From assembly GCA_949502235.1 (NCBI GenBank), contig CATBDC010000006.1, positions 1 to 64,000 of the forward strand: a stretch of 64,000 nucleotides of DNA, given 5' to 3'. The position numbers and the translations under genes are program-made. This stretch comes from an uncultured Lachnospiraceae bacterium (lineage in GTDB: Bacteria; Bacillota; Clostridia; Lachnospirales; Lachnospiraceae). The notes below the pieces were generated by a model, which searched no databases, was not told the origin of the DNA, and saw nothing but the letters and a program-made list of their open reading frames with translations. Below, piece by piece: positions 597-32,285 of the stretch; position 1 is the stretch's first letter; each line of letters starts with the position of its first letter.

Positions 597-728
597 ATGA
601 TGCTGCAGGTGGTTGACCCGGGAAGGGCGGTTCTTGCCGCAGCCATTATGGCGTCAGCGGGAATTGTTTTATTCCTGTACAGGAACAGGAAAACCCTTAA
701 GAAAAGGTTAAGAGGTGTATATGAATAA
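597..728 (+). CDS. Small single-pass membrane protein, 43 residues
   Basis: Unrecognised small protein. The reading frame is open from 540, but the ATG at 597 is chosen because AGAGGGAGAGG sits just upstream; a second ATG follows at once (MMLQ). It reads MMLQVVDPGRAV and then one hydrophobic helix (AAAIMASAGIVLFLYR, about residues 15-29) followed by a basic tail (NRKTLKKRLRG). The helix plus basic tail resembles the C-terminal part of a sortase substrate or pilin, but no sorting pentapeptide is visible, so this is only a resemblance. The stop overlaps the start of the CapD-like gene by 8 bases, indicating translational coupling. Presence of a gene is likely; function unknown. Confidence 0.55.
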   Translation: MMLQVVDPGRAVLAAAIMASAGIVLFLYRNRKTLKKRLRGVYE

Positions 729-2574
729 GGAGACGGGTACGCCGTGGGTATACCGGGCAGCTATGATTGCCTTTCTGGACATGCTGATTGTGCTGGCATC
801 CTATCTGCTGGCGCTGATTCTCCGGTTTGACTTTGAATTTTCCAGTATTCCGCGGATGTACCTGAACGGTTACCTGTGGTCCATGCCCTTCTGGATAGCC
901 GCTACCATTGTGGTATTCTACGCATGCAGGCTGTACCACAGCATCTGGCGGCTGGCCAGCGTGCCGGAGGTGCAGATGTGCATTACGGCATATATCGTGC
1001 TGCTGCCGGTGTACGGCCTGGGGATTGTATTTATGAGCCTGCGGATGCCCAGGTCTTATTATTTTATTGGTTATATTTTAAGCTTCTGTATGACAACAGG
1101 CCTCCGGTTTTCCTACCGGCTGTTCCGCCAGTTTTTAAGTAACCGGGATACCTATGAGGAAGATCAGGATCGGATTATGGTTATCGGCGGGGGAGCAGCA
1201 GGACAGACTCTGATACAGGAGTTAATAAACAGTAGAAGATTGCATACAAAGGTATGCTGTGTGATTGATGACAACCCTAATAAGCATGGCCGCCTGTTAG
1301 AGGGAATTCCTATTGTGGGAGATCGCTACGATATCCTTGACATGGTGGAGAAGTATAGGATAAACCATATCATTTATGCTATACCTGCTAACACAGGAAA
1401 GAACCGGAAGGATATCTTAAATATCTGCAAGGAAACAAACTGCAAGCTACAGACCGTGCCGGGGGTATACCAGCTCGTCAACGGAGAGGTCAGTGTGAGC
1501 AGACTTCGGGATGTAGAGATCACAGACCTTTTGGGGAGAACCCAGGTAAAGGTAAACAATGCAGAAATCTTTGCCGCCCTCCGTGGCCATAAGGTGATGG
1601 TAACGGGAGGGGGAGGCTCCATAGGGAGTGAGTTATGCCGCCAGATAGCCAAGGCAGGGCCTTCGCAGTTAATCATTTTTGATGTATATGAGAATAATGC
1701 TTACGAAATACAACAGGAACTACTCAAGAAACATAATAATTTAGAACTCCATGTGCTGATAGGCTCGGTGCGCAACACCCATCGGATTAACCAAGTGATG
1801 GAGGAGTACCGGCCGGATGTAGTCTACCATGCAGCGGCCCACAAGCATGTGCCGCTGATGGAGGAAAGCCCCAATGAAGCAATTAAAAATAATGTGATGG
1901 GAACCTATAAGACAGCTATGGCTGCTGTGGCAGTGGGAGTAAAGAAGTTCGTCTTGATATCCACAGACAAGGCAGTAAATCCCACCAATATCATGGGGGC
2001 ATCAAAGCGGCTGTGTGAGATGGTGGTGCAGATGATGAACCGGAAAACGGATACGGTCTTTGCCGCCGTCCGGTTCGGGAATGTGCTGGGGAGCAACGGA
2101 AGTGTAATTCCGTTATTCAAGAAACAGATAGCAGAGGGTGGTCCGGTGACCATAACGGATAAGAACATTATCCGGTATTTTATGACCATACCGGAGGCAG
2201 TGTCCCTTGTACTGCAGGCATCCTACTATGCAATGGGTGGAGAGATTTTCGTTCTGGACATGGGGGAGCCAGTAAAGATAGATGACATGGCAAGGAATTT
2301 AATCCGTTTGTCAGGATACACGCCGGAAGTGGATATTCCCATTATATACACAGGATTACGGCCTGGGGAGAAGCTGTATGAGGAGCTTCTAATGGATGAG
2401 GAAGGACTGGCGGGTACAGCTAATGAGATGATACATATTGGCCGTCCTATAGAAATGGATGATGATTGGTTTGTCGAGAGATTAGAAGAGTTAGACGAGG
2501 CAAGTCGCCAAGACTCATCAAGAATAAAAGAGATAGTAGCAGAGATTGTACCCACTTATCATAGAGTATCATAG
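721..2574 (+). CDS. CapD/FlaA1-type membrane nucleotide-sugar 4,6-dehydratase
   Basis: Polysaccharide biosynthesis enzyme of the membrane-bound UDP-HexNAc dehydratase family (PglF/WbpM/CapD). About four membrane helices lie within the first 125 residues. A first nucleotide-binding region follows (MVIGGGAAGQTLIQEL), and the catalytic short-chain dehydrogenase-type domain starts near residue 288 with VTGGGGSIGSE. The usual active-site tyrosine is replaced by methionine in NIMGASKR (about residue 425), which is normal for this family. Length of about 617 residues fits full-length members. The ATG at 721 is preferred over the GTG at 715 because AGAGG (711-715) is then correctly spaced. GC is higher than in the genes after loaP, so it probably belongs to the older locus backbone. 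It likely makes a 4-keto-6-deoxy-HexNAc precursor; the exact sugar cannot be read from the sequence. Confidence 0.9.
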   Translation: MNKETGTPWVYRAAMIAFLDMLIVLASYLLALILRFDFEFSSIPRMYLNGYLWSMPFWIAATIVVFYACRLYHSIWRLASVPEVQMCITAYIVLLPVYGLGIVFMSLRMPRSYYFIGYILSFCMTTGLRFSYRLFRQFLSNRDTYEEDQDRIMVIGGGAAGQTLIQELINSRRLHTKVCCVIDDNPNKHGRLLEGIPIVGDRYDILDMVEKYRINHIIYAIPANTGKNRKDILNICKETNCKLQTVPGVYQLVNGEVSVSRLRDVEITDLLGRTQVKVNNAEIFAALRGHKVMVTGGGGSIGSELCRQIAKAGPSQLIIFDVYENNAYEIQQELLKKHNNLELHVLIGSVRNTHRINQVMEEYRPDVVYHAAAHKHVPLMEESPNEAIKNNVMGTYKTAMAAVAVGVKKFVLISTDKAVNPTNIMGASKRLCEMVVQMMNRKTDTVFAAVRFGNVLGSNGSVIPLFKKQIAEGGPVTITDKNIIRYFMTIPEAVSLVLQASYYAMGGEIFVLDMGEPVKIDDMARNLIRLSGYTPEVDIPIIYTGLRPGEKLYEELLMDEEGLAGTANEMIHIGRPIEMDDDWFVERLEELDEASRQDSSRIKEIVAEIVPTYHRVS

Positions 2575-3457: not shown

Positions 3458-4726
3458 ATGTTTGACAAGTGTAGGAAATATGAACCATTTAGCACAAAGT
3501 TGTGGCTTGCAAGTCCTAAAATGCATGGAGAGGAACAGAAATGGATAGATGATGCAATTAGGACAAACTGGATGTCTACAGTAGGGGAGAATATAGACGA
3601 AACCGAAAGATTGCTGGCAGAAAAAGTAGGATGTAAATATGCGGTGGCATTATCAGCAGGAACGGCTGCATTACATCTTGCTGCTAAGCTGGCAAAAATA
3701 AAGCCGGGAGATAAAGTGTTCAGTTCTGATATGACATTCGATGCTACTGTGAACCCAATGGTTTACGAAGGAGCAGTTCCGGTCTTTATTGATACAGAGT
3801 ATGATACATGGAATATGGATCCGATAGCTTTAGAGAGAGCATTTGAGCTGTATCCTGAGGTGAGAGTTATTGTGTTAACACACCTTTATGGTACACCAGG
3901 TAAGCTTGATGAGATTAGAAAAATTGCTGATATGCATGATGCTGTGCTTATTGAGGATGCAGCAGAATCCTTAGGAGCAACATATAAAGGAAAGCAAACT
4001 GGAGCATTTGGAGAATTCAGTTGTATCAGTTTTAATGGCAATAAAATTATCACTGGTTCATCAGGTGGAGCTTTGTTGACAGATAATGTTGAAGCAGCGG
4101 GGAAAGTGAGAAAATGGTCTACACAGAGCCGGGAAAATGCTCCATGGTATCAACATGAGGAGTTAGGCTATAACTATCGTATGAGTAATGTGATTGCCGG
4201 AGTAGTCAGAGGTCAGATCCCTTATTTGAAGGAACATATAAGAGAGAAAAAGAAGATTTATGAGAGATATAAGGAAAGGTTAAAAGGACTGCCGGTTTCA
4301 ATGAATCCCTATGACGCGGAGAATAGCGAACCGAATTTTTGGCTTAGCTGCATGATGTTGACATCTGATGCAATGTGCCTCCAGGTACGTTCAGAAACAG
4401 AAGCCCTTTATATTCCGGAACACAGAAAATCTTGTCCTACAGAGATCTTAGAGGCGATAGCAAGCATAAATGCAGAAGGGCGTCCTGTTTGGAAACCAAT
4501 GCACATGCAGCCCATATACCGTATGAATCCTTTTATTAATAGATACGGAGATGCGCGTGCAAAAACAAACGCATACATAAAGAGAGAGAATTATGGAGCA
4601 GATGGAAAACCTTCAGATGTAGGTGCGGATATTTTTAACCGTGGACTGTGCTTGCCATCTGACAATAAGATGACAGAAGAACAACAGGATAAAGTGATTG
4701 AAGTTATAAGGGCGTGTTTCGAATAA
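3458..4726 (+). CDS. DegT/DnrJ/EryC1-type PLP sugar aminotransferase
   Basis: Transfers an amino group to a keto sugar nucleotide. The fold is clear from LSAGTAALHLAAKLA (about residues 67-81), the cofactor-side segment EDAAESLGATYKGKQTGAFG, and the PLP-binding lysine in SFNGNKIITGSSGG (about residue 195). The 422-residue length is slightly above the usual 370-400, with extra sequence in the C-terminal third. The ribosome site is weak and purine-rich (AGAAAGAGAA). A 169-base AT-rich leader with no gene separates it from loaP. It may act on the 4-keto sugar made by the CapD-like enzyme, giving a 4-amino-4,6-dideoxy sugar; this pairing is inferred from context only. Confidence 0.88.
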   Translation: MFDKCRKYEPFSTKLWLASPKMHGEEQKWIDDAIRTNWMSTVGENIDETERLLAEKVGCKYAVALSAGTAALHLAAKLAKIKPGDKVFSSDMTFDATVNPMVYEGAVPVFIDTEYDTWNMDPIALERAFELYPEVRVIVLTHLYGTPGKLDEIRKIADMHDAVLIEDAAESLGATYKGKQTGAFGEFSCISFNGNKIITGSSGGALLTDNVEAAGKVRKWSTQSRENAPWYQHEELGYNYRMSNVIAGVVRGQIPYLKEHIREKKKIYERYKERLKGLPVSMNPYDAENSEPNFWLSCMMLTSDAMCLQVRSETEALYIPEHRKSCPTEILEAIASINAEGRPVWKPMHMQPIYRMNPFINRYGDARAKTNAYIKRENYGADGKPSDVGADIFNRGLCLPSDNKMTEEQQDKVIEVIRACFE

Positions 4727-4787
4727 GAAAGATTTGAATGAGAGGAAATGCGTGGTCACAAAAGATGATTAGCTGGAGATGATTTAA

Positions 4788-8558: not shown

Positions 8559-8560
8559 CT

Positions 8561-14139: not shown

Positions 14140-15468
14140 ATGGAATTTAACAACATCTACCAGGGAGTGATTTCTGGAAAAGAAAAGCTAGCACTGGTTG
14201 GTCTTGGGTATGTCGGTATGCCAATTGCAGTAGAGTTTGCCAAGCACGTTAAGGTTATAGGATTCGATATTAATAAGAATCGTGTCGATGAATATAAGAA
14301 CGGTATTGATTCAACAAATGAGGTGGGTGAAGCTATAAAAGATACAACAGTGGAATTTACGGCGGATGCAGCTAAATTGAAAGAAGCTAGGTTCATTGTT
14401 GTAGCTGTACCAACACCAGTTAACGAAGATAATACACCTGATTTGAGATTTGTGGAAGGAGCTTCACGTACAGTTGGTCAGAACCTTGCTCCGGGAACAA
14501 TAGTTGTATTCGAATCTACGGTCTATCCGGGAGTTACAGAAGATATCTGTATTCCAATCATAGAAAAAGAATCAGGCCTTAAATGCGGTGAAGATTGGAA
14601 AATAGGATATAGTCCAGAACGCATCAATCCAGGAGATCGGGTACATACATTGACATCAATTCGCAAGGTTGTATCTGGTATGGATGAAGAATCTGCGAGA
14701 GAAATTAAAAAAGTATATGATATTATCATTAAAGCAGGAACCTTCCCAGTATCTAGTATCAAAGCTGCTGAAGCGGTGAAGGTTGTTGAGAATAGCCAGC
14801 GTGATATTAATATCGCTTTTATGAATGAGATTGCTATCATCTGCGACAAGCTGAAGATTGATACAGATGAAGTTTTGGCGGGAATGAATACAAAATGGAA
14901 TGCTCTTGGCTTTAAGCCGGGACTGGTAGGTGGTCACTGCATTAGTGTTGATCCATATTATCTTACAAACATAGCAGAGAAACTCGGATACCATAGCCAG
15001 ATAATATTAAATGGTCGTCAAGTAAACGATTCCATGGGTTCTTTTGTGGCGGATGCTGCAATCAAAGAGATGATTGAAGCAGGAATGGCTCCAAAAAAAG
15101 CAACGGTAGTTGTTATGGGGTTAACATTTAAAGAGAACTGTCCGGATACTAGGAATAGTAAAGTTATAGATATTATTGACAGGCTAAATGAATATGATAT
15201 TAATCCAATAGTAACGGATTCCTGGGCAGATCCTGAAGTGGCCAGAAAAGAATATGGCGTGGAATTGACAGTTTGGGATGATGTCCCAAAAGCAGATTGT
15301 GTAATTGTGGCAGTCGGCCACAATGAATATCGTTCCATGTCAACGATGCAGCTAAAAAATCTGTTCAAGGATGAACTTGATGATAAGGAAAAGGTTTTAG
15401 TAGATGTTAAATCTTTGTATCGTATGGATGAGCTTAAAGCTTCTGGAATGAGATTTTGGAGATTGTAA
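14140..15468 (+). CDS. UDP-N-acetylhexosamine 6-dehydrogenase (WbpA/TviB/WecC type)
   Basis: Oxidises C6 of a UDP-HexNAc to the uronic acid with two NAD. The N-terminal NAD motif is LALVGLGYVGMPIAVEFAKH (about residues 17-36). IGYSPERINPGDRVHTL and the catalytic cysteine in LVGGHCISVDPYYL (about residue 267) are diagnostic, and KAAEAVKVVENSQRDINIAF carries the conserved Lys and Asn of the substrate site. Length 442 fits WbpA and TviB. AAAGGAG precedes the ATG. With the following oxidoreductase and DegT aminotransferase it forms the order wbpA-wbpB-wbpE expected for a 2,3-diamino uronic acid. Confidence 0.93.
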   Translation: MEFNNIYQGVISGKEKLALVGLGYVGMPIAVEFAKHVKVIGFDINKNRVDEYKNGIDSTNEVGEAIKDTTVEFTADAAKLKEARFIVVAVPTPVNEDNTPDLRFVEGASRTVGQNLAPGTIVVFESTVYPGVTEDICIPIIEKESGLKCGEDWKIGYSPERINPGDRVHTLTSIRKVVSGMDEESAREIKKVYDIIIKAGTFPVSSIKAAEAVKVVENSQRDINIAFMNEIAIICDKLKIDTDEVLAGMNTKWNALGFKPGLVGGHCISVDPYYLTNIAEKLGYHSQIILNGRQVNDSMGSFVADAAIKEMIEAGMAPKKATVVVMGLTFKENCPDTRNSKVIDIIDRLNEYDINPIVTDSWADPEVARKEYGVELTVWDDVPKADCVIVAVGHNEYRSMSTMQLKNLFKDELDDKEKVLVDVKSLYRMDELKASGMRFWRL

Positions 15469-15486
15469 ACGTTGGAGGGTATGAAG

Positions 15487-16485
15487 ATGTTAAACTTTGC
15501 ACTAATAGGATATGGATATTGGGGACCTAATGTCGCAAAGAATCTATATAAAAACAAACAGATAGAATTTAAGTACATCTGTGATTTGAGGCAGGACAGA
15601 CTTAATCTTGCAAAAGATTCATATGTAAATGAAGTGAACTATACAACAAAGTTTGATGAGGTTATTGCAGATGACAACATTGATGTAGTATGCCTTGCCG
15701 TAGAAACAAGTGCTCATTATGAGTTGGGGAAGAGGGTTATTGAAGCCGGGAAGCATTTGTATGTCGAGAAACCCTTTACGGATAATGTTGCACAAGCATT
15801 TGAATTAAAAAAACTTGCTGCAGAAAAGGGAGTTAAAATACATGTGGATCACATCATGATCTACCATCCTGCTATTGTTAAGATTAAGGAGATTATGGAG
15901 GCAGGAGAGTTGGGAGACACTATTTATATGGATTGTTCTAGAATGAATCTTGGCAAGGTAAAAAATGATGTCAGTGCTATGTGGGATTTGAGTGTTCATG
16001 ATCTTTCGATTATAGATTTTCTATCGAACGGTGCAGAAGTAAAGAACGTAAAAAGTATGGGAAGAGTTATATATAGTAAAAAACCTTCTGTTACATTTAT
16101 TACTGCAGATTATGGCTACTTTATTGCAAATATAAAGGCAAATTGGATATCCCCTATCAAAGAAAGAAAACTAATTATTGCTGGCACAAAGAAAATGCTC
16201 GTATATGATGATGTTGACGTGCTAAATAAGCTAATAGTTTATGATAAAGGATTTGATGTGATTAAAGCAAGCGATCCGATGGAATACTATGAGTTTGTTG
16301 TTAAAACAAGAAGCGGAGATGCAGTAATTCCTCAACTTGATGTAGGCGATGCTTTGTACAATAGTCTGGAACATTTCCGGCAGTGTATTATAAATAAGAA
16401 AGAGTCTCTTTCAGGAGCGGATGCAGCTATTAGGGTATTGACTGTACTAGAAGAAGCGGATAAAAACATGATAATTTCTGAATAG
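15487..16485 (+). CDS. Gfo/Idh/MocA oxidoreductase, WbpB-like by context
   Basis: NAD-dependent oxidoreductase; MLNFALIGYGYWGPNVAKNL is the Rossmann opening and YVEKPFTDNVAQ the EKP motif (about residues 91-102). The conserved His in WDLSVHDLSIIDFL (about residue 172) is in place. The third ATG, at 15487, is taken as start because GGAGGG at 15474-15479 is then seven bases away; the upstream TTG and ATG (15472, 15481) leave no room for a ribosome site. It sits between the UDP-sugar dehydrogenase and a WbpE-like aminotransferase, so oxidation of UDP-GlcNAcA at C3 is the likely reaction. Family firm, reaction inferred. Confidence 0.87.
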   Translation: MLNFALIGYGYWGPNVAKNLYKNKQIEFKYICDLRQDRLNLAKDSYVNEVNYTTKFDEVIADDNIDVVCLAVETSAHYELGKRVIEAGKHLYVEKPFTDNVAQAFELKKLAAEKGVKIHVDHIMIYHPAIVKIKEIMEAGELGDTIYMDCSRMNLGKVKNDVSAMWDLSVHDLSIIDFLSNGAEVKNVKSMGRVIYSKKPSVTFITADYGYFIANIKANWISPIKERKLIIAGTKKMLVYDDVDVLNKLIVYDKGFDVIKASDPMEYYEFVVKTRSGDAVIPQLDVGDALYNSLEHFRQCIINKKESLSGADAAIRVLTVLEEADKNMIISE

Positions 16486-16529: not shown

Positions 16530-17657
16530 ATGGATTTCATTGATTTAGGAAGACAGTATGCGGTTATTAAGGATAAGCTCAATACCAGTATCGGGAATGT
16601 AATTGATTCCCATCGTTTTATTATGGGACCGGAGGTTACTGAACTAGAGAACAGACTGGCAAAGTTTGTTGGAAGAAAGTATTGTCTAACTTGCGCAAGC
16701 GGAACGGATGCACTTCAGATTCCTCTGATGGCCTATGAGCTTTCAAAGACAGATGCTGTATTTGTCCCTTCCTTTACTTTTTTTGCAAGTGCGGAGAGCG
16801 TTAATCTTTCAGGTGCCACTCCTGTCTTTGTGGACATTGATAGTACATTCAATATGAGTATAGAGTCTCTTGAAACGGAGATAAAGAGAGTGCTTAATGA
16901 GGGGAAACTAACACCGAAGGGAATTATGCCGGTCGATCTCTTTGGACGCAGTGCAAACTATGATTTAATTCTTCCAATTGCTAAAAAGTATGGCCTTTTT
17001 GTTTTAGAGGATGCAGCCCAGGGATTTGGAGGCAGTCTTCATGGAAAACGCAATGGAGCATTTGGAGATGTTTCTGCGACATCCTTCTTTCCAGCTAAAC
17101 CGCTTGGCTGCTATGGTGATGGGGGAGCGATTTTCACAGATGACGAGGAGCTTTTCAACAAAATGAAATCAATTCGTGTTCATGGAATGGGTTCTGATCG
17201 TTATGACAATGTACGTCTTGGAATAAATGGAAGAATGGATACAATTCAAGCAGCGGTTCTTCTCGTAAAACTTGATATATTTGAAGATGAACTTCAGACT
17301 CGCCAGACGGTTGCAGGATGGTATACAGATGAATTGAAGGATGTATTTACGGTTCCCAAAACGGATCTGGAATATTTCTCTGCATGGGCACAGTATACTA
17401 TCTGTGCGAAGAATGAAGAAGAACGTACCAAGATTATTAATGAAATGAGAAAAAAGAATATTCCAGTGATGATATATTATCCAATTCCTCTTCATGAACA
17501 GACAGCATATAAGAATCTTGGGTATGGTAATGTTACTCTTCCTTATTGCTCAAAGGTCTCAAAACAGGTGTTCAGTCTGCCAATGCACCCTTATTTAAAG
17601 CGGGAGGAAGTCATACACATTTGCAATACATTGAAACATATCTGTGGTGCGAAATAA
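16530..17657 (+). CDS. DegT-family sugar aminotransferase, WbpE-like by context
   Basis: PLP-dependent amination of a keto sugar nucleotide. FIDLGRQYAVIKDKL at the N-terminus is characteristic of the WbpE/WlbC subgroup; LTCASGTDALQIPLMAYEL, EDAAQGFGGSLHGKRNGAFG and the PLP lysine in ATSFFPAKPLGCYGDGGA (about residue 190) are all present. Length 375 is normal, and AAAAGGAGA precedes the ATG. It follows the WbpA/WbpB-like pair, so UDP-3-keto-GlcNAcA is the expected substrate, giving UDP-GlcNAc(3NH2)A. No WbpD-type acetyltransferase follows; the only hexapeptide sugar acyltransferase in the locus is the lipoyl-domain chimera at 27169. Confidence 0.9.
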   Translation: MDFIDLGRQYAVIKDKLNTSIGNVIDSHRFIMGPEVTELENRLAKFVGRKYCLTCASGTDALQIPLMAYELSKTDAVFVPSFTFFASAESVNLSGATPVFVDIDSTFNMSIESLETEIKRVLNEGKLTPKGIMPVDLFGRSANYDLILPIAKKYGLFVLEDAAQGFGGSLHGKRNGAFGDVSATSFFPAKPLGCYGDGGAIFTDDEELFNKMKSIRVHGMGSDRYDNVRLGINGRMDTIQAAVLLVKLDIFEDELQTRQTVAGWYTDELKDVFTVPKTDLEYFSAWAQYTICAKNEEERTKIINEMRKKNIPVMIYYPIPLHEQTAYKNLGYGNVTLPYCSKVSKQVFSLPMHPYLKREEVIHICNTLKHICGAK

Positions 17658-22873: not shown

Positions 22874-23884
22874 ATGCATCTTGTAATCATTGAATCAACT
22901 TCGAGTAATGTTTATTACAATCTGGCTTTAGAGGAATATCTTACGACAAAGTACTGTTCACAGGATGAGATTATTTTATTCCTTTGGAATAACGAAAAGT
23001 CTATTGTACTCGGACGTAATCAGTGTGCGAATATGGAGTGTGATATTGGATATGCACTGAAAAACGGTATAAACATCAGTAGACGAATTTCCGGAGGTGG
23101 GGCTGTATATCATGATAAGGGAAACCTTAATTATACATTCATTGCTCCGAATGATATTTACTCAAAAGAATTATTTTCATCAATTGTACTGAACTGTTTG
23201 TTAAGTTTAAACTTGAATGCTAGCCTGTCTGGAAGAAATGATGTTGAGATTGATGGCAGAAAGATCTCAGGGATGGCGTACTATCAGGGAAATATAAATT
23301 CATTTCTTCATGGATGTATATTGGTTTGTGTTGACCTTGGTGAATTGGAGCGCATACTCACTGTCAGTTCAGAAAAGATTGAATCTAAAGGAATAAAATC
23401 AGTAAAGGCTAGAGTTGCTAATTTACAGGATTTTGATTCAAAAATCCATCATAACCAGATAAAAAGTGGATTGATAAAGGAATTCAAGCAGAGATTATTA
23501 AGAGAAAAAAAAGATTCCGTGAGTTTTCTTAAATCGGAAGAAATTGTTGTACCAGATTGTTTGGTCAGCCGCTACAAATCAGATGAATGGATATTTGGAA
23601 AAAATATTCAGGCAGTGTTTAGACTGCACAGAAAGTTTTCATGGGGTGAATGCAATCTCCACCTCTGTGTTATTGGAGAAATAATAGTTGATGCTATTTG
23701 TTATTCAGATTCCCTCGAAACAAAAATCTTTTTGAAGATATCGGAATCGTTGAGCGGGTGTAAGTTTATAAAACATGAGATGAGAGAAAGACTCGAAAAC
23801 ATAATGCCCAATTTTAATGGAAATGTAGATATTATAAACGATATATGTAGAATGATTGTGGAGGAATTGAATGCTTATGAATAA
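22874..23884 (+). CDS. lplA: Lipoate-protein ligase A
   Basis: Attaches lipoate, through lipoyl-AMP, to a lysine of a lipoyl domain. The family motifs are all visible: RRISGGGAVYHDKGNLNYTF (about residues 68-87), the catalytic lysine in DGRKISGMAYYQG (about residue 128), and the HGCILV segment. The C-terminal region of about 90 residues found in larger LplA proteins is present. The ATG at 22874 is chosen because AAAGGGGG lies just upstream. It opens a five-gene unit (lplA, E3, E1 beta, E1 alpha, chimeric E2) placed after glycosyltransferases. The obvious substrate is the lipoyl domain of the chimera at 27169, which makes this a dedicated ligase rather than a housekeeping one; that is inference from context. 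Confidence 0.92.
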   Translation: MHLVIIESTSSNVYYNLALEEYLTTKYCSQDEIILFLWNNEKSIVLGRNQCANMECDIGYALKNGINISRRISGGGAVYHDKGNLNYTFIAPNDIYSKELFSSIVLNCLLSLNLNASLSGRNDVEIDGRKISGMAYYQGNINSFLHGCILVCVDLGELERILTVSSEKIESKGIKSVKARVANLQDFDSKIHHNQIKSGLIKEFKQRLLREKKDSVSFLKSEEIVVPDCLVSRYKSDEWIFGKNIQAVFRLHRKFSWGECNLHLCVIGEIIVDAICYSDSLETKIFLKISESLSGCKFIKHEMRERLENIMPNFNGNVDIINDICRMIVEELNAYE

Positions 23885-25331
23885 AGGCTATTATGATCTT
23901 GTCATAATCGGCGGGGGAATAGGTGGATATAGTGCCGCATTGAGAGCGAGAGAATACGGAAAAACTGTAGCAATAATAGAAGAAGAAAAATTAGGCGGAA
24001 CATGTCTTAATAAGGGGTGTATTCCGACAAAGGCATTTTTACATATTGCTAAAGATTTAAAAAATCAAAAAATAAACTCTTATAAATATACAAAGACAAA
24101 TGAAAAGTCATCTTTAGGCGATAGTATAGCTAATTCAATACAGGATAAGGTTTCGACTATTATTAAAGGGCTCAAGTATATGATTGATAAGGCGGGAATC
24201 GATGTTTTTTATGGGAAGGCTATTGCAAAAGGTAATAATACAGTTGGCGTGATTAATATAGATGAAGATGAGCAAAATTTTAGAGATGTTCCAGATATAG
24301 TATATCAAAATTTAATAATTGCAACAGGAGCACTTCCTTTTATACCGCGTGATATTAAATTGAGTAAAAATATCTTTACTACTGATGAGGCTTTCAAAGC
24401 ATCTAACATAGAGTTTGAAAAGATAGCAATTGTTGGCGGAGGGGTTATTGGAGTAGAGTTTGCATCTATTTATTCAGATTTAGGAAAAAATGTTACTGTA
24501 ATTGAGGCCTTAGATAATTTGGTTTCTGGATTTTCAAAGGAATTGTCGGGTTTTGTAAGAACACATCTACAAAAAAAGGGGGTATCAGTAAGAACTTCAA
24601 CATGTGTTATTCAAATATCAGATGAAGATGATGAAGTATATCTGATGCTAAAAAACAGTGGCGATATAATGGATGAAATGCTTACTGATAAGGCATTAAT
24701 ATGTACAGGAAGAAAAGCTAATATTGAGCAGACATTTACTGAATTGCTTGGGCTTGATATTCATGACAGTGGAGCAATAAAAGTCAATGAGGATTTTGAA
24801 ACATCAAAACAGGGAGTGTATGCAGTAGGCGATGTGAGCAGCAAAATCCAGCTTGCATATACTGCTTCAAAGTCAGGCGAAAAAGTCGTTGATAATCTAT
24901 ATAAGGGAAAGTCTGATGGAAGTGGAGTAATTCCCAAGTGTATTTATATGGATATAGAAATAGCCCAGGCAGGCCATGTGATTGATGATGAAGAGGATGA
25001 AACATATATTGCAGAAAAGATTTCATTAAAGCTAAATGGAAGGGCAGTACTTGAAGGACAAACATTGGGTTTTATACGAATGACTGCAGAAAAAAATACA
25101 GGAATTATGACAGGTGTTGAAATAGCGGCACCCAATGCAGTTGATAACATTCAGCTATGTAAAACATATATTGATGCAAGGAAAACAGTAGATGAAATAT
25201 CTGATATAGTTTTTCCCCATCCATCCTATATTGAAGTAATTAAGGATGCAGCAAAAGCTGTAAATAAAAAATTAAAACGCAGTAAACATCAGGAGAAGGA
25301 GCAGAACAGTGAAATATTTAATGAGCCTTAG
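23871..25331 (+). CDS. lpdA: Dihydrolipoamide dehydrogenase (E3)
   Basis: Flavoenzyme that reoxidises dihydrolipoyl groups with NAD. The FAD motif DLVIIGGGIGGYSAALRA is at the N-terminus, the redox disulfide is in GGTCLNKGCIPTKAFLH (about residues 41-57), the NAD motif is IAIVGGGVIGVEFASIYSDLG (about 186-206), and the C-terminal interface carries the catalytic His-Glu pair in FPHPSYIEVIKDAAK. Length 486 is slightly longer than usual because of a charged tail (LKRSKHQEKEQNSE). It has no lipoyl domain of its own. GGAGG precedes the ATG, and the gene overlaps lplA by 14 bases. Its presence implies lipoyl turnover by this locus. Confidence 0.94.
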   Translation: MLMNKGYYDLVIIGGGIGGYSAALRAREYGKTVAIIEEEKLGGTCLNKGCIPTKAFLHIAKDLKNQKINSYKYTKTNEKSSLGDSIANSIQDKVSTIIKGLKYMIDKAGIDVFYGKAIAKGNNTVGVINIDEDEQNFRDVPDIVYQNLIIATGALPFIPRDIKLSKNIFTTDEAFKASNIEFEKIAIVGGGVIGVEFASIYSDLGKNVTVIEALDNLVSGFSKELSGFVRTHLQKKGVSVRTSTCVIQISDEDDEVYLMLKNSGDIMDEMLTDKALICTGRKANIEQTFTELLGLDIHDSGAIKVNEDFETSKQGVYAVGDVSSKIQLAYTASKSGEKVVDNLYKGKSDGSGVIPKCIYMDIEIAQAGHVIDDEEDETYIAEKISLKLNGRAVLEGQTLGFIRMTAEKNTGIMTGVEIAAPNAVDNIQLCKTYIDARKTVDEISDIVFPHPSYIEVIKDAAKAVNKKLKRSKHQEKEQNSEIFNEP

Positions 25332-26265
25332 ACAAGGTTTAGAAAAAATGATTGAAACTCATAATGGGTATTTAATAGGAGAAGATATTCAAGAACCATA
25401 TGGCGGCGCTTTTAAGGTTACCAAAGGAATGTCAAGTAAATATCCTGATAATATAATCGGTACACCTATGTGTGAACAAGGCTTTACTGGGCTTGGTGTT
25501 GGAATGGCGCTGCATGGGGAGTACGTTTCTGTAGAAATAATGTTTGGAGACTTTATCACTCTTATTGCGGATCAAATGATAAACCATGCGGCAAAATTTG
25601 CTGATATGTACCAACAGAGAATGCACTTAGTTGTCAGATGTCCATCGGGGGGCTACAGGGGATATGGGGCCACCCACTCTCAGTCATTGGAAAAGATATT
25701 TATGGGTATTCCAGGTATACAGGTTATAGCGCCATCTATTGCAACAGATCCGGGAGATTTGTTCAACAGGGCAATAGAGAGCGGAGTTCCTACATTATTT
25801 GTGGAGAATAAATTAGATTATCCGAAGGAATTGCTACCTGATAGAGGTGAATTCTGGATTAAGAACATAACATCAGATAACTTTCCTGTAGTGTCACTAT
25901 GTCCGGAAGGGGAAAAACCAGATATTACATTGATTACCTATGGCGGTATGGTTCCTTTATCTGTTGAAGTAATGAAATATTTTTTGTATGAAGAGGAGAT
26001 AAATGTTGAGATTCTTGTGCTTTCGGAATTATCGAATTTGGAGGGTAAAATGAATTATGTTCAAACACATAAAGCTGTCGTACTTGAAGAAGGGGTTGCT
26101 GAATTTGGATGGGGCTCGGAGGTTAGTTATGAATTGTCTAAGTTAGGTGTTCACAGTACCAGAATAGGTGCAAGAAGGCGTTCTATTCCTTCCGCTAAAA
26201 AAGCTGAGGAAATGGTGCTTCCGATGTTTGATGACGTTATTGCTACTATAGAAAGGGATATGTAA
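25309..26265 (+). CDS. 2-oxoacid dehydrogenase E1 beta subunit
   Basis: Beta half of a thiamine-diphosphate E1 that decarboxylates a 2-oxo acid and acylates a lipoyl group. IGEDIQEPYGGAFKVTKGM (about residues 23-41), NIIGTPMCEQGFTGLGVGMA, the Glu that activates the cofactor in EIMFGDFI, and RCPSGGYRGYGATHSQSLE (about 108-126) are conserved in PDH and acetoin dehydrogenase beta subunits. The start is GTG at 25309, after AAGGAG, inside the 3' end of the E3 gene. Length 318 is normal. The order beta before alpha is reversed from common pdhAB operons. The substrate 2-oxo acid cannot be told from sequence by eye. Confidence 0.9.
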   Translation: MKYLMSLRQGLEKMIETHNGYLIGEDIQEPYGGAFKVTKGMSSKYPDNIIGTPMCEQGFTGLGVGMALHGEYVSVEIMFGDFITLIADQMINHAAKFADMYQQRMHLVVRCPSGGYRGYGATHSQSLEKIFMGIPGIQVIAPSIATDPGDLFNRAIESGVPTLFVENKLDYPKELLPDRGEFWIKNITSDNFPVVSLCPEGEKPDITLITYGGMVPLSVEVMKYFLYEEEINVEILVLSELSNLEGKMNYVQTHKAVVLEEGVAEFGWGSEVSYELSKLGVHSTRIGARRRSIPSAKKAEEMVLPMFDDVIATIERDM

Positions 26266-27158
26266 TGAATGTAGAAAAAATATACAAAGAATGTTATAGA
26301 ATACGTTCCTTTGAAAAAAAAGTAGAGCAGGAGTTTTCTAATGGTAAACTTAGAGGGACTACTCATGGCTGCATAGGACAAGAGATAATTCCAGTTCTGG
26401 CGATGGAATTCATAAACAAAGAGACAGATTATGTTGTTGGCACACACAGATGTCATGGACAAGTTCTTGCATATACGGGTGATACATACCGCCTTGCATG
26501 TGAGATGATGGGAAGGAAAGATGGATTTGTTAAAGGAATTGGCGGAAGTCAGCACATTAAGGTTGATAAATATCTTACAAATGGAATCACAGGAGGTATG
26601 GTGACAGTTGGAACTGGAATTGCGCTTGGTATTAAAAAAACTGCTGAAGATGCAATAGTTACTTCATTTTTTGGAGACGGTGGATTTAATGAGGGTTATG
26701 TTCAGGAATCACTGAATTTGGCAGCATCTTTAGAACTTCCAATATTATATATATGCGAGAACAATCATTATGCAATGTCAACTCCAACAGTAAAGTATTC
26801 GGCACCAGATTTTGGTACAAGAGTAACATCTCTAGGGATGTACTATATAATGTCGGATACAGCGGAGCCTCAGAAACTATGTAACGATATGGAAGAAGCA
26901 TTCTCGTATGTTAGAAAGTTCAGAAAACCCTGCGTCATCGATGTGCATACTGCAAGACTGTGCGGACATTCAAAATCTGATAGTATGGAGTACATGTCAA
27001 ATGAAGAGAAACAAAAGAATATCGAGAATGACCCTATTGCGTGGCTGGAACGGAATATTCAGAACTCTGCGAGGTTAAGCATACAACAACAGATAGCAAA
27101 AGAAATAAATGATGCTTTTGACAAAGCGTACATATGTGAAGAAATCTTAGAATTTTAG
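26265..27158 (+). CDS. 2-oxoacid dehydrogenase E1 alpha subunit
   Basis: Thiamine-diphosphate-binding half of E1. The ThDP motif begins at FFGDGGFNEGYVQESLNL and ends at ICENNHYAMS (about residues 137-171), and the N-terminal part carries THGCIGQEIIPV and GTHRCHGQ with the conserved active-site His. It lacks a long phosphorylation-loop insertion. Length 297 is at the short end for acetoin/pyruvate dehydrogenase alpha subunits (about 320). Its ATG shares one base with the stop of the beta gene. With the beta subunit it should form an alpha2beta2 E1 that loads the lipoyl arm of the neighbouring chimera. Confidence 0.9.
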   Translation: MNVEKIYKECYRIRSFEKKVEQEFSNGKLRGTTHGCIGQEIIPVLAMEFINKETDYVVGTHRCHGQVLAYTGDTYRLACEMMGRKDGFVKGIGGSQHIKVDKYLTNGITGGMVTVGTGIALGIKKTAEDAIVTSFFGDGGFNEGYVQESLNLAASLELPILYICENNHYAMSTPTVKYSAPDFGTRVTSLGMYYIMSDTAEPQKLCNDMEEAFSYVRKFRKPCVIDVHTARLCGHSKSDSMEYMSNEEKQKNIENDPIAWLERNIQNSARLSIQQQIAKEINDAFDKAYICEEILEF

Positions 27159-27168
27159 GAGGATAAAA

Positions 27169-28281
27169 ATGGCTTACACAAAAATTTATTTGCCAATCAT
27201 TGATGTGAATGAAGAAGAGGCTGTAATTACAGAGCGACTATTTAAAGATGGCAATAAAGTTGAGAGTGGAGATGCTGTGCTTGTCGTTGAAAATACAAAA
27301 GCAACAAAAGATGTTATAGCAGATCAGAGTGGATATATACTTTTTCAGTGCAAGGAGTTTGACACTATGAAGAATGGAGATTGCGTTGCACTGATTTTTG
27401 ATACGGTTGAGGAGTTGGAGAATTTTAAGAGTCAGAGCTTTTCTAGTAACAACGAAAATAAGAAGGCAAACAATTTCTCTGTAAATGCAACAAAAAAAGC
27501 GATTGCTTTAGCTGAAAAATTAGGCGTTGATATTTCAGAAATTGTTTCTTCAAATAGTGGAAAACTTATAAAAGAAAAAGATGTTGAATTGTTTGCATCT
27601 GCGATAACTAGCGGCAAATTGAAAAAAGAAAGGCCTTTGTTTTCCCTGAAGAGAGAACGCATAGTGATCATTGGTGCTGGAAATGGCGCAGAAGTGGTTA
27701 TAGATATTTTGCTGGATTATCAGGATGTGGAAATTGTTGGGTTGGTTGATGATAATGTTAAGGTATTTAAGAATTATAACATACCTATACTTGATTGTGG
27801 AATAATGGATTTTCCAGACAAGTATGGTGAGGAATTCTACGATACAGCAATCATATCAATAGGTTCAAATCTTAAATCAATGAAATTTCGCCGGAGTGTT
27901 TTTGAAGAATACAAGGCAAAAGGGGTTAAGTTTACTAATGCAATAGCGAAATCTGCTGAAATAAGAAGAGGAGTACAGATTGGAGAGGGCAATATTATTG
28001 GTGCGGGGTGCTATGTTGGGACTCTGACGAGGATAGGGGATAATAACTCTATTAGTTATGGAGCTAATATTGGTCATCACAATGTCATCGGCAGTCATAA
28101 TCTTATTGCACCAGGTGTGTTCACGTCTGGGTCAGATTTAATAGGAGACAGCTGTACTATTCCGGCGGGCGTTTCAATTATTAACACTGTATCGATTGGC
28201 AATAATGTTATTGTTCCTATTGGCTATGCTGTTAGTCAATCAATCGAGGCTGGAAAGATCATAAAAAAAAATGAAAATTAA
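27169..28281 (+). CDS. Chimeric E2: lipoyl domain, E1/E3-binding domain, NeuD/PglD-type sugar acyltransferase
   Basis: Three domains are visible. Residues 3-78 are a lipoyl domain with the attachment lysine in VVENTKATKDVIADQSGYI (K44), matching the usual ETDKA hairpin. Residues 103-142 are a peripheral-subunit-binding domain (ATKKAIALAEKLGVDISEI, then GKLIKEKDVELF) of the kind that docks E1 and E3. From residue 164, where an E2 acyltransferase domain should begin, there is instead a Rossmann-like PglD/NeuD N-domain (RIVIIGAGNGAEVVIDILL) and a left-handed beta-helix of hexapeptide repeats (GVQIGEGNIIGAGCYVG; GANIGHHNVIGSHNLIAPG) with the likely catalytic His at 303-304. The expected CoA-acyltransferase HxxxD motif is absent. 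The inferred reaction is transfer of an acyl group from the lipoyl thioester to an amino sugar. It is the last intact cassette gene, with AGGAGG before the ATG. Domain calls firm; acyl donor use inferred. Confidence 0.9.
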   Translation: MAYTKIYLPIIDVNEEEAVITERLFKDGNKVESGDAVLVVENTKATKDVIADQSGYILFQCKEFDTMKNGDCVALIFDTVEELENFKSQSFSSNNENKKANNFSVNATKKAIALAEKLGVDISEIVSSNSGKLIKEKDVELFASAITSGKLKKERPLFSLKRERIVIIGAGNGAEVVIDILLDYQDVEIVGLVDDNVKVFKNYNIPILDCGIMDFPDKYGEEFYDTAIISIGSNLKSMKFRRSVFEEYKAKGVKFTNAIAKSAEIRRGVQIGEGNIIGAGCYVGTLTRIGDNNSISYGANIGHHNVIGSHNLIAPGVFTSGSDLIGDSCTIPAGVSIINTVSIGNNVIVPIGYAVSQSIEAGKIIKKNEN

Positions 28282-28319
28282 CAAATGATTTTATGCGTTG
28301 TGAAAAGGGAGCTGACAAA

Positions 28320-28963
28320 ATGCAACACAAGTATAACAAACAGGAAGGCAAAATAAACAAACGAAATTCTGGAGTGGAATTACTGAAAAACTGTGGATTG
28401 CTATATATTTCGTTATGGCATATTTGCAATTATATTTAGAGAAGTTTTCAAAGAATATAAAGCAGAATATGTTCCTTTTAGCTATCGGATTTGCAGGCTT
28501 TATAGGAATAGAAGTTGTCGCAATTATTTTTTTGGGGTACATAAATAACGCTTATTTGAATGATAAGATATTACATTGGGTAACGAGCTGCTACCCTAAT
28601 CCGTTTCTAATTGCGATTTCTATAGCCCTTTTTAACTGTATGCGTAATTTTGATTTTAGCAACAAAGTAATTAATTACCTTTCAGGTATGTCTTTGTTGA
28701 TTTATATTATTCATGACAATCTTATATTGCGCTTATATTTTAGGCCGGCAATGTGGAATTTCGTATACCAGAAGTACGGCTATAGCCAACTTTTGCTTTG
28801 GGTTTTTGCACTGACTGCCGCAGTTTTTCTTTTTAGCTTAATTTGTTCAGTGCTGTATGATAAGACTATTCGTTGGGTTATACATTCAATTAGCAATCAT
28901 CTTTATTTTATTTTTAGAAAGTGGTATTTGAAAGCTGAAAAATTTGCGCTTAAATTCTATTAA
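28320..28963 (+). pseudogene. Acyltransferase 3 (OafA/WecH-like), internally deleted
   Basis: The ATG at 28320, after AAAGGGAG, opens a frame encoding an acyltransferase-3 N-terminus (RNSGVELLKNCGLLYISLWH) that stops at 28440. An overlapping frame from about 28415 encodes the C-terminal membrane part (LQLYLEKFSKNI, then LSGMSLLIYIIHDNLILRLYF) to 28963. About 140-150 residues of the usual 340 are missing between them, so the gene is broken by a deletion and frame change. Intact relatives acetylate surface polysaccharides. The remnant suggests a former O-acetylation function at this locus. Confidence 0.78.
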
Positions 28964-29143
28964 GGTTGATATAAAGCTCTATTTTGCATTGGTCAATGCA
29001 GTAACAGATAAAAAGGTTAAGAGCATCTTAGTGGCAGAGATGTTTGACGCCTGGAAGCAGTCTCAGTGGACATCGGATGTTACTGCTGTATTCAAGTTAC
29101 ATATCATGCGGCGTTGAGTGAGATTGTAGATTTGCTGCTCTAA
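28964..29143 (+). other. Gene-debris segment without recognisable gene
   Basis: 180 bases between two pseudogenes. One frame reads for about 50 codons (ALVNAVTDKKVKSILVAEMF, then DAWKQSQW) without a ribosome site and stops at 29117; another short frame (YHAALSEIVDLLL) stops just before 29144. I recognise neither. The segment most likely consists of remnants left by deletions at the cassette edge. Confidence 0.5.
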
Positions 29144-29790
29144 ATGGAAGAGCTTTATCGTTGTTTCCGGCCGTGGCTATCAGATGTCAACCTGGCATAT
29201 TCCGAACATGCCAGAAGATATCTCGCCGACTGCGGTCTGCCAAAAGAGAGGACCTATGTCACAGGCTCACCCATGGCCGAGGTTCTTAAGAATAACCTGC
29301 AGTCAGTCCTTAAGTCAGACATCCACAGCAGACTGTCCGCAGAGACGGGGACAGCAATTGAGAAAGGAAAATATATTCTTCTGTCCGCACACAGGGAAGA
29401 GAATATAGATACAGAGAAAAATTTTGTTTCTTTATTTACCGCTGTCAATGCCATGGCTGTTTACAGGTAAATGCCTATGCTGTAGTGTCAGATTCCGGAA
29501 CACTGCCAGAGGAAAGCAGTTATTTTACATCCGTGAGCCTCCCCTTTCCTGCTGTATGTATCCGCACTAGTACGGAACGCCCGGAGGTGTTAGAGAAGGC
29601 CTGCTTCGTGTTATCCGGCATCGGTACAGAAGGGCTTTTGCAGGCTGTCGAGCTTGCGGTGGCATTGAATGAAAACGGTGATTACGGTATTCCGGTACCA
29701 GATTATATTAATACAAATGTAAGTACAAAGGTCGTAAAGATTATCCAGAGCTATACGGGAATTGTTGACAGATTCGTATGGCGAAAGTAG
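29144..29790 (+). pseudogene. UDP-GlcNAc 2-epimerase family (CapG/WbjD-like), truncated and internally deleted
   Basis: Two fragments in different frames belong to one epimerase. 29180-29459 encodes SDVNLAYSEHARRYLADCGL, YVTGSPMAEVL and ILLSAHREENID. 29470-29790 encodes LQVNAYAVVSDSGTLPEESS and the C-terminus. The N-terminal third is missing, and about 50 residues plus the frame are lost at the junction near 29460. GC is clearly higher than in the preceding cassette and matches the CapD-like gene at 721, so this is probably a relic of an older capsule locus that also used CapD-type chemistry. Confidence 0.82.
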
Positions 29791-30313: not shown

Positions 30314-30838
30314 CTACTCCTCCGGAACCACCGGCTTCCAGGCTTTCCCGAAGTTAATATCCTTAAACAGTGCTGCCAGCCCTGTTATCTGCTTAAGCCT
30401 TAATATCTCATCCTTATCCATTCCCAGATGCTTTGATATCCATGCATCAGACCGCCCCAGTTCATGCAGCTCCTTCACAATATTGCTCATTAAATCAATG
30501 TCATGGCTTCCTCTGGCGCGGTTGTGCCGGATAGTGCTTGCCATCCTCTGGTCCAGAGACCTGTTTATGACAGAAACAGGAAGCATGCCGTCCTCCCTTT
30601 CATAAATGTCGGGATAATCAAGCATGATACGGTAGCGGTGAAAGCCGTCTACGATAATATAACTATCGTCCTCCTTATCATAGTAGCATACGATAGGCAT
30701 GGTATAGCCGTCAGCCTTGATGCTGTCGTAGAGAAGGCGCATCTCCGGCGGCGCCACGGTGTTCGGATTATAGGTATTCGGCTTGATCTTTTCTATTGGT
30801 ACTGAAATAATATTGTAGACAGGACTTTTACGGCTCAT
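30314..30838 (-). CDS. IbrB-like ParB/Srx-domain protein
   Basis: ParB N-terminal-domain protein without a partition-type C-terminal half. Visible motifs are IKPNTYNPNTVAPPEMRLL, the active-site-like IIVDGFHRYRIM (about residues 62-73) and IRHNRARGSHD (about 102-112). A helix-turn-helix-like segment follows (SKHLGMDKDEILRLKQITGL). It overlaps the PAPS-reductase-like gene by 11 bases, with GAGGAG as ribosome site. In Escherichia coli the equivalent pair is IbrA/IbrB, known as a regulator of immunoglobulin-binding surface proteins. The biochemical role is unknown; a partition function is unlikely because no ParA is present. Confidence 0.82.
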   Translation of the reverse strand: MSRKSPVYNIISVPIEKIKPNTYNPNTVAPPEMRLLYDSIKADGYTMPIVCYYDKEDDSYIIVDGFHRYRIMLDYPDIYEREDGMLPVSVINRSLDQRMASTIRHNRARGSHDIDLMSNIVKELHELGRSDAWISKHLGMDKDEILRLKQITGLAALFKDINFGKAWKPVVPEE

Positions 30839-32159
30839 AATTCATCTCCTCAATGCTTTTGTACTTTCTCTTAATGCTGTCGATGCGTTTTTGCTGTTCT
30901 CTTGTCATTCCAAATCCCATAAAGCGGCAGATGTGGTCATTTTTTAAAATACAGTAGCACATGCGCTTCCAGCTGGGAATATCCTTAGAGGTTTTAATAT
31001 CATCCGTGTTATCGGGGATATTTTCTAAAAAAATAATCCGTGATTTTTTGTTTAGCGTATAGTTTGATACGCCATTTCGTTTAATTTTATATCCGTGCTC
31101 TATAAGCTCCTGGATAGTCTCCTCGTCAAGTCCGCCGCCGGTCTTATGCCAGAATTCAATGGAGGTATTGAATTTTTTTGCATAATTGTTGCGGAGCCTT
31201 GCGGGGAGTGTATCTAAGAGGAACATGGTGTAGGATTTCCACGTATGTCCCGGCGGGAGGGTAATATTGCGGTAACCCATCGCCTTTGTTTTTCCGTATA
31301 TAGCCGCAAAATTCGCGCCGCGGACACGGCCCACAAGCTTTACCCATATCTCCGGATCTATTACCCGGTAAAGGTTCAGGGAATCCTTGGAATAGTCATT
31401 AAATGGGGAGGCTACGCGCATCTGGGAAACCGTAAGGCCTGCTTTATAATAAAGGTCATACAGATGATTATAATCATACTGGAACAGATAATTAGCATGC
31501 CACACATCTTCAGTAGACCAGTCGTATAAGGGAGAGGCGCACCAGACATCCTTAAACTGCTTACTGATCCAACATTCATCCTGATAGCCGTATTTCTTAT
31601 TTAAAAAGCCGCTGTACCTCTGGAGGGATTCATCAGCGCGCATGCCGAGAAGGCATACGGTCTTTTTTCTTCCGTGGGAGAGACGATACCATCTGCCGAA
31701 CTGCTTTGCCAGATCCTCCTGATGCATCCGGTAACGGTAGGTAAACATGGGATTGTGCTCCAGATTGATAACATAATCCTTATCCGGCATCTTCCGTACC
31801 CAGTGCTCCTTTTTCTTGTCATCCCAGGGATACCAGTACATCTGATAGCTGCTTAAGGCGGTTCTTGTGGCCATAGGAAGGCATACCCAGTAGGGCTCCA
31901 CTTCAAACTGGAGACGCTCAAAGGTCCGCTCTACATATTCGCTGGTCAGGGTATACTGTGCCTCAAAATCCTGGTGGAACAGGCCGATTCTTTTCCACGG
32001 ATAATACTTTCTCTGATAATCCAGAGTCATATTCAGCAGAAGTCCGCTGTCCTTTCCGCCGGAAAATGAGACATAAATATTGTCGAATTCCTCGAAAATA
32101 AGCTTCATCCGTTTCAGAAATGCCTCATACACAGTTTCATCCATATATTCACGTTTCAA
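30828..32159 (-). CDS. IbrA-like phosphoadenosine phosphosulfate reductase family protein (DUF3440)
   Basis: PP-loop ATP-binding protein with IYVSFSGGKDSGLLLNMT near the N-terminus, the family nucleotide motif. Further family segments are CLLGMRADESLQRYSGF and CASPLYDWSTEDVWHAN, the latter as in sulfonucleotide reductases and DUF3440 proteins. The frame is open to 32207, but the TTG at 32159 is taken as start because AGGAGG lies five bases upstream. Length is about 443. It is co-translated with the ParB-like protein. The sulfate-assimilation role is doubtful because the DUF3440 half and the ParB partner are characteristic of the IbrAB pair, which has no defined reaction. Confidence 0.83.
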   Translation of the reverse strand: MKREYMDETVYEAFLKRMKLIFEEFDNIYVSFSGGKDSGLLLNMTLDYQRKYYPWKRIGLFHQDFEAQYTLTSEYVERTFERLQFEVEPYWVCLPMATRTALSSYQMYWYPWDDKKKEHWVRKMPDKDYVINLEHNPMFTYRYRMHQEDLAKQFGRWYRLSHGRKKTVCLLGMRADESLQRYSGFLNKKYGYQDECWISKQFKDVWCASPLYDWSTEDVWHANYLFQYDYNHLYDLYYKAGLTVSQMRVASPFNDYSKDSLNLYRVIDPEIWVKLVGRVRGANFAAIYGKTKAMGYRNITLPPGHTWKSYTMFLLDTLPARLRNNYAKKFNTSIEFWHKTGGGLDEETIQELIEHGYKIKRNGVSNYTLNKKSRIIFLENIPDNTDDIKTSKDIPSWKRMCYCILKNDHICRFMGFGMTREQQKRIDSIKRKYKSIEEMNYEP

Positions 32160-32285
32160 GTAAACACCTCCTGTCAGTACGTGTGAATAATTTCCAATAT
32201 TTTCCATATAATATGTAATTTATCATATAAAACAAGGAAATACAATGAATCTATGACTTTTTTCGAGAAAAATCGACAATAACGG

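Follow-up and report, generated by a model that had tools for sequence, protein, structure and literature searches.

Why should a bacterial polysaccharide cassette carry the components of a 2-oxoacid dehydrogenase complex? The question is raised by five plus-strand genes at positions 22874-28281 of the window, by which we mean the whole stretch of 64,000 nucleotides analyzed here, from an uncultured Lachnospiraceae bacterium. In this order, they encode a lipoate-protein ligase (LplA), a dihydrolipoyl-dehydrogenase-like protein (E3), the two subunits E1-beta and E1-alpha of a 2-oxoacid dehydrogenase, and a fusion protein with E2-like N-terminal domains and a sugar acyltransferase at its end. 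The E1 chemistry, the acylation of the lipoyl arm and the recycling by E3 are established parts of the 2-oxoacid dehydrogenase mechanism, for which the textbook end product is acyl-coenzyme A (acyl-CoA). We will argue that the CoA-transferring core has given way in this E2-like protein to a sugar acyltransferase of the PglD type, and that the system, together with E1, E3 and the lipoate ligase, probably passes the acyl group of a 2-oxo acid from the lipoyl arm straight to an amino group on a nucleotide sugar.

A preliminary description of this DNA had listed genes for a lipoate ligase, E3, E1 beta, E1 alpha and an E2-like protein as overlapping or near-adjacent, and both the profile searches and the coordinates agree with this. 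The first three junctions overlap, the gap between E1-alpha and the fusion is 10 bases, and the reading frames are intact in all five genes. LplA (22874..23884) starts with an ATG at 22874 that is preceded by the ribosome-binding-like site AAGGGGG; it contains the motif RRISGGGAVYHD and scores above the equivalog cut-off of NCBIfam TIGR00545 (296.6 vs 280). E3 (23871..25331) has intact CxxxxC and HPxxxE motifs, in the form of GGTCLNKGC with the redox Cys pair and HPSYIE, and is a clear match to NCBIfam TIGR01350, yet under the cut-off (359.3 vs 408.8). E1-beta (25309..26265), which is nearest to the pyruvate type, and E1-alpha (26265..27158) both give clear matches to NCBIfam pyruvate dehydrogenase (PDH) models, also below the cut-offs. 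E1-alpha reaches 168.8 bits with Pfam E1_dh, and its thiamine-diphosphate motif is intact, GDG-X26-NN. All parts that the preliminary description considered necessary, including the ligase, are thus present, with intact motifs in E1-alpha, E3 and LplA.

The fusion protein (27169..28281, plus strand, 370 residues) consists of three domains. The lipoyl domain at residues 1-85 (27169..27423), with approximate boundaries taken from the structural model, is recognized by Pfam Biotin_lipoyl and matched by Foldseek to the PDH lipoyl domain 3crk_C; its predicted lipoylation site is K44 (codon 27298..27300), in the motif ENTKA. It is followed at residues ~107-148 (27487..27612) by an E3-binding-like (peripheral-subunit-binding) domain, which is assigned on the basis of the model, a Pfam match below the cut-off and a family profile. 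Residues 162-368 (27652..28272) form a left-handed beta-helix sugar acyltransferase domain of the NeuD/PglD type, as indicated by Pfam, NCBIfam, the model and fold matches. The nearest solved folds are the N-acetyltransferases PerB, PglB, VioB and PglD, and the score against NCBIfam TIGR03570 (NeuD family) is 125.7, under the cut-off of 160.8. Biotin_lipoyl, PglD_N and Hexapep are each above the Pfam gathering score, while the E2 catalytic core PF00198 was not found in the fusion by the Pfam profile search. The lipoyl and NeuD/PglD assignments of the preliminary description therefore stand, but its E1/E3-binding domain is weaker than was implied (16.6 bits vs a cut-off of 23.7).

Conservation was counted in an alignment of 82 fusions, i.e. 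81 listed full-length relatives and the window. E41, K44 and H303 are invariant in all of them, at identities down to 25%, so that the carrier lysine named in the preliminary description is kept in 82/82. H303 (codon 28075..28077) is aligned with the His of PerB that is replaced in the entries 4eaa (H141N) and 4eab (H141A). Ahead of K44, 73 of the fusions have Thr or Ser and one has Met. The option of biotin instead of lipoate on K44 was also considered and judged to be less likely, given the ENTKA of the window, the single Met before K44 among the 82, and the EAMK of the two other carriers in the genome; (E)AMKM is the biotinylation motif of biotin carriers.

How widespread is this arrangement? 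In a protein search with the fusion, the best 120 of 403 matches were listed, and 81 of these are full-length fusions with 25-75% identity. A scan of the contigs in a collection of 84,980 species genomes, made with one short pattern, gave 30 loci: three with a full-length fusion of the Lachnospiraceae type (type 1), one with a second architecture (type 2, see below), and 26 in which the match starts at residue 128 or beyond. The three type 1 loci, L016 (Butyrivibrio sp. YAB3001), L017 and L018 (both Lachnospiraceae), each encode LplA, E3, E1-beta, E1-alpha and the fusion. LplA and E3 of L018 are located ~5 kilobases (kb) downstream, behind aminoethylphosphonate genes. The contig of L018 is also the one that gave a match in G005, a genome from the same genus as the window, which places the window in the Lachnospiraceae. 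The database search for the fusion and its E1, E3 and LplA neighbors, proposed in the preliminary description, has thus yielded 81 full-length relatives among the matches listed and three other loci of this composition, which rule out a chance adjacency of unrelated genes. As a proxy for location on the same contig, we compared the sizes of the longest contigs: with row P0069 omitted and the best 120 of 1072 E1-alpha matches listed, the size equals that of a listed E1-alpha relative for 37/81 fusions, vs 1/38 other rows. For the type 2 rows the number is 0/52, which says little because the E1-alpha list was built from a type 1 protein.

A full-length fusion occurs in two of the six genomes of the window's genus (its own included), and in one each of 392 genomes of the order and 398 of the phylum, in both cases the window's own. 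In the order, 22 genomes matched at 1e-30, of which the 21 others match only from model position 137 on. The loci's own genomes are likewise the only ones with a full-length fusion in the genera of L016 (1/79) and L017 (1/48), and of the 24 plasmid records with a match, not one extends over 80% of the fusion. As a side observation, genes for PhnW, phosphoenolpyruvate mutase and phosphonopyruvate decarboxylase, all above NCBIfam cut-offs, lie between the fusion and LplA/E3 in L018 (11122-15389), and a LicD gene is found upstream of E1-beta in this locus.

We now consider whether the cassette's E1, E3 and LplA could serve anything else in the window's own genome (G000, which has 101 contigs and a completeness of 95.66%). 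The ordinary E2 core PF00198 was not found in G000, in a search whose control found it in 10 of 14 genomes, nor in any of the L016, L017 and L018 genomes. GcvH was not found in G000 either (control 13/14 genomes; the L016-L018 genomes were not searched for it), and no second LplA was found in G000, the cassette's being the only one. G000 has three Biotin_lipoyl proteins, and the two besides the fusion carry the biotin motif EAMK. Taken together, this leaves the fusion as the only visible outlet, and by these searches E1, E3 and LplA can serve it alone, unless further genes are located in assembly gaps. The candidate of an ordinary E2 elsewhere, served by the cassette's E1, E3 and LplA, was accordingly not found in G000.

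Turning to the acyltransferase domain, the CoA-dependent relative Pcryo_0637 provides a reference for the donor site: according to PMC8040287, the Asn212-Pro213 peptide in its last turn is cis with CoA and trans without it. The CoA-associated C-terminal G-x-P turn, recounted with one pattern for all groups, is present in 0/82 fusions vs 30/36 short relatives among the matches listed (22/36 with a narrower pattern). Leu312 is found in 69/71 fusions, with His at this position in 22/36 short relatives, and Pro350 in 59/71, with Gly there in 31/36. Where Pcryo_0637 has its uridine-contacting pair, by a correspondence made by eye, the fusions have an Asp, D194, in 80/82 cases. These patterns suggest that the sugar side of the domain has been kept and that its thioester side has changed. 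The domain order, the conservation, the linkage to E1 genes, the lack of an E2 core among the genes found in G000 and the loss of the CoA-associated turn are directly supported by the sequences. The wiring of the fusion with E1, E3 and LplA that had been proposed in the preliminary description is well supported by the conserved fusion and its occurrence with these genes, the genome in which neither PF00198 nor GcvH was found, the retained His and the lost turn. Contig C42 of G000 contains an ordinary standalone NeuD, with a TIGR03570 score of 209 and the turn present as G-V-P-A; at L084 (C42), 4207-6282, it lies directly behind a second LegC/PglE-like aminotransferase, and the standalone protein offers itself as a CoA-type reference for the fusion.

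On this basis, the following mechanism can be suggested. LplA would lipoylate K44, as the pairing of the genes indicates, and E1, whose motifs are intact, would decarboxylate the 2-oxo acid and leave an acyl thioester on the lipoyl arm. The arm would then take the position of the CoA pantetheine in the beta-helix trimer, where His303 may assist the attack of the sugar amine. Finally, E3, presumably docked on the E3-binding-like domain, would reoxidize the arm with NAD+. We consider a lipoyl-fed sugar acyltransferase complex very likely; the direct, CoA-free transfer from the lipoyl arm to the sugar, as well as the acyl group and the acceptor, is what we infer.

As to the substrate of E1, E1-alpha scores 133 bits against the human pyruvate E1 vs 61 for the branched-chain enzyme, and E1-beta 100 bits against the pyruvate type vs 90 for the branched-chain type. 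The window's E1-alpha has a Thr in its RGTTH motif at the position of a Phe in human PDH, a residue that we take to line the substrate pocket. Among the 120 E1-alpha relatives listed, 118 contain a motif of the RGTTH type, always with this Thr. This is a hint at a non-acetyl substrate, and a hint only because the role of the Phe is assumed.

It is important to consider also the second architecture. In L039, from an uncultured Pelagibacteraceae bacterium, E1-alpha and E1-beta are accompanied by a 354-residue protein with lipoyl and E3-binding-like domains and a different beta-helix domain, which is 44-45% identical to the N-acetyltransferase Pcryo_0619 (Foldseek; predicted local distance difference test score of the model, 80.3). 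A sugar aminotransferase gene follows directly, and an N-acetyl sugar amidotransferase gene is found further on. The search gave 55 type 2 rows, of which 53 are full length (>=335 residues), and the lysine motif is present in all 53; the genomic context is that of the single locus L039. Full-length type 2 occurs in one of the 385 genomes of its class, that of L039, while five others match from model position 163 on. To judge from the sequences, a lipoyl/E3-binding-like module has thus been joined to two unlike sugar acyltransferases. With some reserve, we lean towards the broader proposition that cells power glycan acylation directly with the oxidative decarboxylation of 2-oxo acids, with the lipoyl arm as a donor that needs no acyl-CoA and the module joined to at least two beta-helix acyltransferase domains, the Lachnospiraceae and the Pelagibacteraceae types. 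In the Pelagibacteraceae genome G815 two PF00198 matches were found, so the argument that no other outlet exists does not hold there.

A number of points weigh against direct transfer, and the first two would fit an alternative in which the beta-helix domain still uses acyl-CoA, made on the spot by the fused lipoyl/E1/E3 system through transfer to CoA at this or a different site, with the fusion acting as a channeling device. PerB, PglB, PglD and Pcryo_0637 have been crystallized with CoA or acetyl-CoA, and the G-x-P turn is kept in 52/53 type 2 proteins (46/53 with the narrower pattern), which means that a lipoyl fusion need not imply the loss of CoA and cautions against generalizing. The 36 short comparison proteins are few and biased, having been retrieved by similarity to the fusion, and at least one of them, P0072, looks like a fragment from the fusion family itself. 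The NeuD on C42 could acetylate the cassette sugars in trans, and since G000 is incomplete, other outlet genes may sit in its gaps. LplA is found in 17/61 genomes of relatives, own included, and is therefore not an exclusive marker of the fusion system. As to the docking of E3, Pfam E3_binding is above its cut-off of 23.7 in none of five segments tested alone; it is listed for two of them, the window (16.6 bits) and L016 (13.3), and not for L017, L018 and L039. A profile built from this segment across the family picks up the counterpart in an ordinary PDH E2 with 20.9 bits, vs 7.5 for the best of 200 shuffles, but it did not find the OGDH E2 segment. We nevertheless regard the channeling alternative as rather unlikely, as the G-x-P turn is absent from 82/82 type 1 fusions, and PF00198, the usual transferase from acyl-lipoyl to CoA, was not found in the genomes of the window, L016, L017 and L018.

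Another option is that the lipoyl arm does transfer the acyl group directly, but to a hydroxyl or to a lipid-linked or polymeric glycan. The beta-helix acyltransferases include O-acyltransferases, and one source calls NeuD-family rows sialic acid O-acetyltransferases; the closest solved folds, however, are the four N-acetyltransferases named above, amino-sugar aminotransferases are encoded in the cassette, and the uridine-contacting Asp is kept. The second residue of that pair, D195, is less constant, being Asp in only 60/82 fusions and Ser in 18, so the nucleotide may vary. All considered, this acceptor class seems quite improbable. That the lipoyl and E1/E3 modules have a role other than acyl donation (redox sensing, for instance), or that they are a degenerating insert next to a sugar acetyltransferase of the usual kind, would fit the gene remnants at the downstream edge of the cassette. 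It is, on the other hand, hard to reconcile with five intact frames, with K44 and H303 being invariant in 82 sequences at identities down to 25%, and with a similar N-terminal module on two different acyltransferase domains, and we consider it most improbable.

Direct transfer from the lipoyl arm to a sugar amine can be put in perspective by a comparison with known systems. With 2-oxoacid dehydrogenase complexes of the pyruvate and acetoin type, the gene cluster shares E1, E3, the lipoyl domain, the ligase for lipoate and, by a match below the Pfam cut-off, an E3-binding-like domain; these complexes contain the PF00198 core where the present system has a beta-helix sugar acyltransferase. The sugar N-acetyltransferases PglD, NeuD, PerB and VioB share with the fusion the fold, the PglD_N and hexapeptide regions, the catalytic His and most of the uridine Asp pair; unlike them, the fusion has lipoyl and E3-binding-like domains, falls below the TIGR03570 cut-off and lacks the G-x-P turn. 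By its domains, the system is then neither a 2-oxoacid dehydrogenase complex, having no E2 core, nor a standard NeuD, and seems to work like the front half of the former and the back half of the latter. Carrier-bound donors have precedents among beta-helix sugar acyltransferases: LpxA and LpxD use a donor bound to acyl carrier protein (ACP), and LpxD entries titled 'Chasing Acyl Carrier Protein' are among the fold matches. WfpG, a PglD homolog of Flavobacterium psychrophilum, is predicted in PMC6519341 to use a putative cluster-encoded, O-polysaccharide-specific ACP. In these cases the donor thioester is tethered to phosphopantetheine on ACP with fatty-acid-type loading, whereas here it would be tethered to lipoate and loaded by oxidative decarboxylation. 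In peptide antibiotics, NapB/NapD-type E1/E2-like pairs load a two-carbon unit onto an ACP; there, too, an E1/lipoyl system feeds a biosynthetic acceptor other than CoA, but the acceptor is a carrier protein instead of a sugar, and E2 is replaced differently. The preliminary description knew of no pathway of this type, and none was described in the open-access PubMed Central papers listed by our searches, subscription journals being outside this scope.

Should the proposal be correct, 2-oxoacid dehydrogenase complexes would gain a second, biosynthetic type of end product and sugar acylation a new source of energy, and cells could install acyl groups without an existing CoA thioester. It would explain why E1, E3 and LplA are retained in a genome where an ordinary E2 and GcvH were not found, and it predicts unusual N-acyl groups, set by the 2-oxo acid of E1, in Lachnospiraceae and perhaps marine polysaccharides. 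The five-protein system is compact and can be tested. It would also call for caution in annotation, as such E1 genes and fusions would not signal an ordinary pyruvate dehydrogenase; these E1 genes are annotated by one source as 'TPP-dependent pyruvate/acetoin dehydrogenase alpha subunit', and fusions carry the name 'PglD-related sugar-binding protein'.

Which sugar could be the acceptor? As stated in the preliminary description, the five genes share an AT-rich cassette with sugar-nucleotide genes, and a dehydratase, aminotransferases and a dehydrogenase are indeed encoded in this 28-kb region, whose sugar genes comprise one for a 4,6-dehydratase-like protein, two for DegT aminotransferases, one for a TviB/WbpA-like dehydrogenase, two Gfo/Idh genes and a 2-epimerase gene, together with an initiating-transferase-like gene and genes for a Wzy_C protein and a flippase-like protein. 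All the following are on the plus strand. The UDP-N-acetylglucosamine (UDP-GlcNAc) 4,6-dehydratase-like protein (715..2574) has a membrane-type N-terminus, is under all cut-offs and is presumably of the PglF/CapD type; it may supply the acceptor sugar. The DegT sugar aminotransferase at 3458..4726, with 1o61/4ztc (PglE) as best solved relatives, is a candidate for a C4-amino route of the PglF/PglE kind. Candidates for a C3-amino route of the WbpA/B/E kind are the Gfo/Idh oxidoreductase at 15472..16485, as 3-dehydrogenase, and the DegT aminotransferase at 16530..17657, which is close to WbpE, one of its nearest named solved relatives; the TviB/WbpA-like nucleotide-sugar dehydrogenase is at 14140..15468. 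Among the 18 genes called upstream of the five-gene set, profiles and a crude pattern scan found no second beta-helix acyltransferase, which makes the fusion the cassette's own candidate for amino-sugar acylation. The acceptors are likely UDP-4-amino- or UDP-3-amino-sugars. The fold relatives of the fusion, with the substrates that we take them to have, favor C4, while C3 is favored by L017, where the counterpart of the 16530..17657 aminotransferase (49.6% identical) ends directly before LplA, and by L016, where a Gfo/Idh gene adjoins LplA.

Some further genes of the window deserve mention. At 7392-10528, a class I aminotransferase, a D-2-hydroxyacid dehydrogenase and a PylC-like ATP-grasp ligase are encoded in a row; they could make an amino or hydroxy acid and join it to the amine of a sugar, or else provide E1 with its 2-oxo acid. 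The region 28282-29790, behind the fusion, contains a partial membrane acyltransferase (28415-28963, Acyl_transf_3 just below the cut-off) and a UDP-GlcNAc 2-epimerase fragment (29144-29470), accompanied by one more stretch in a different frame (29485-29790), and these apparent gene remnants suggest a decayed downstream boundary of the cassette. Just beyond the AT-rich part, a DUF3440/PAPS-reductase-like protein and a ParB-like protein (by eye) are encoded on the minus strand at 30314-32207. Near the head of the cassette there is a NusG-like gene (2770-3288), and similar-looking genes, again by eye, head the cluster on C42 (L084, 2393-4210).

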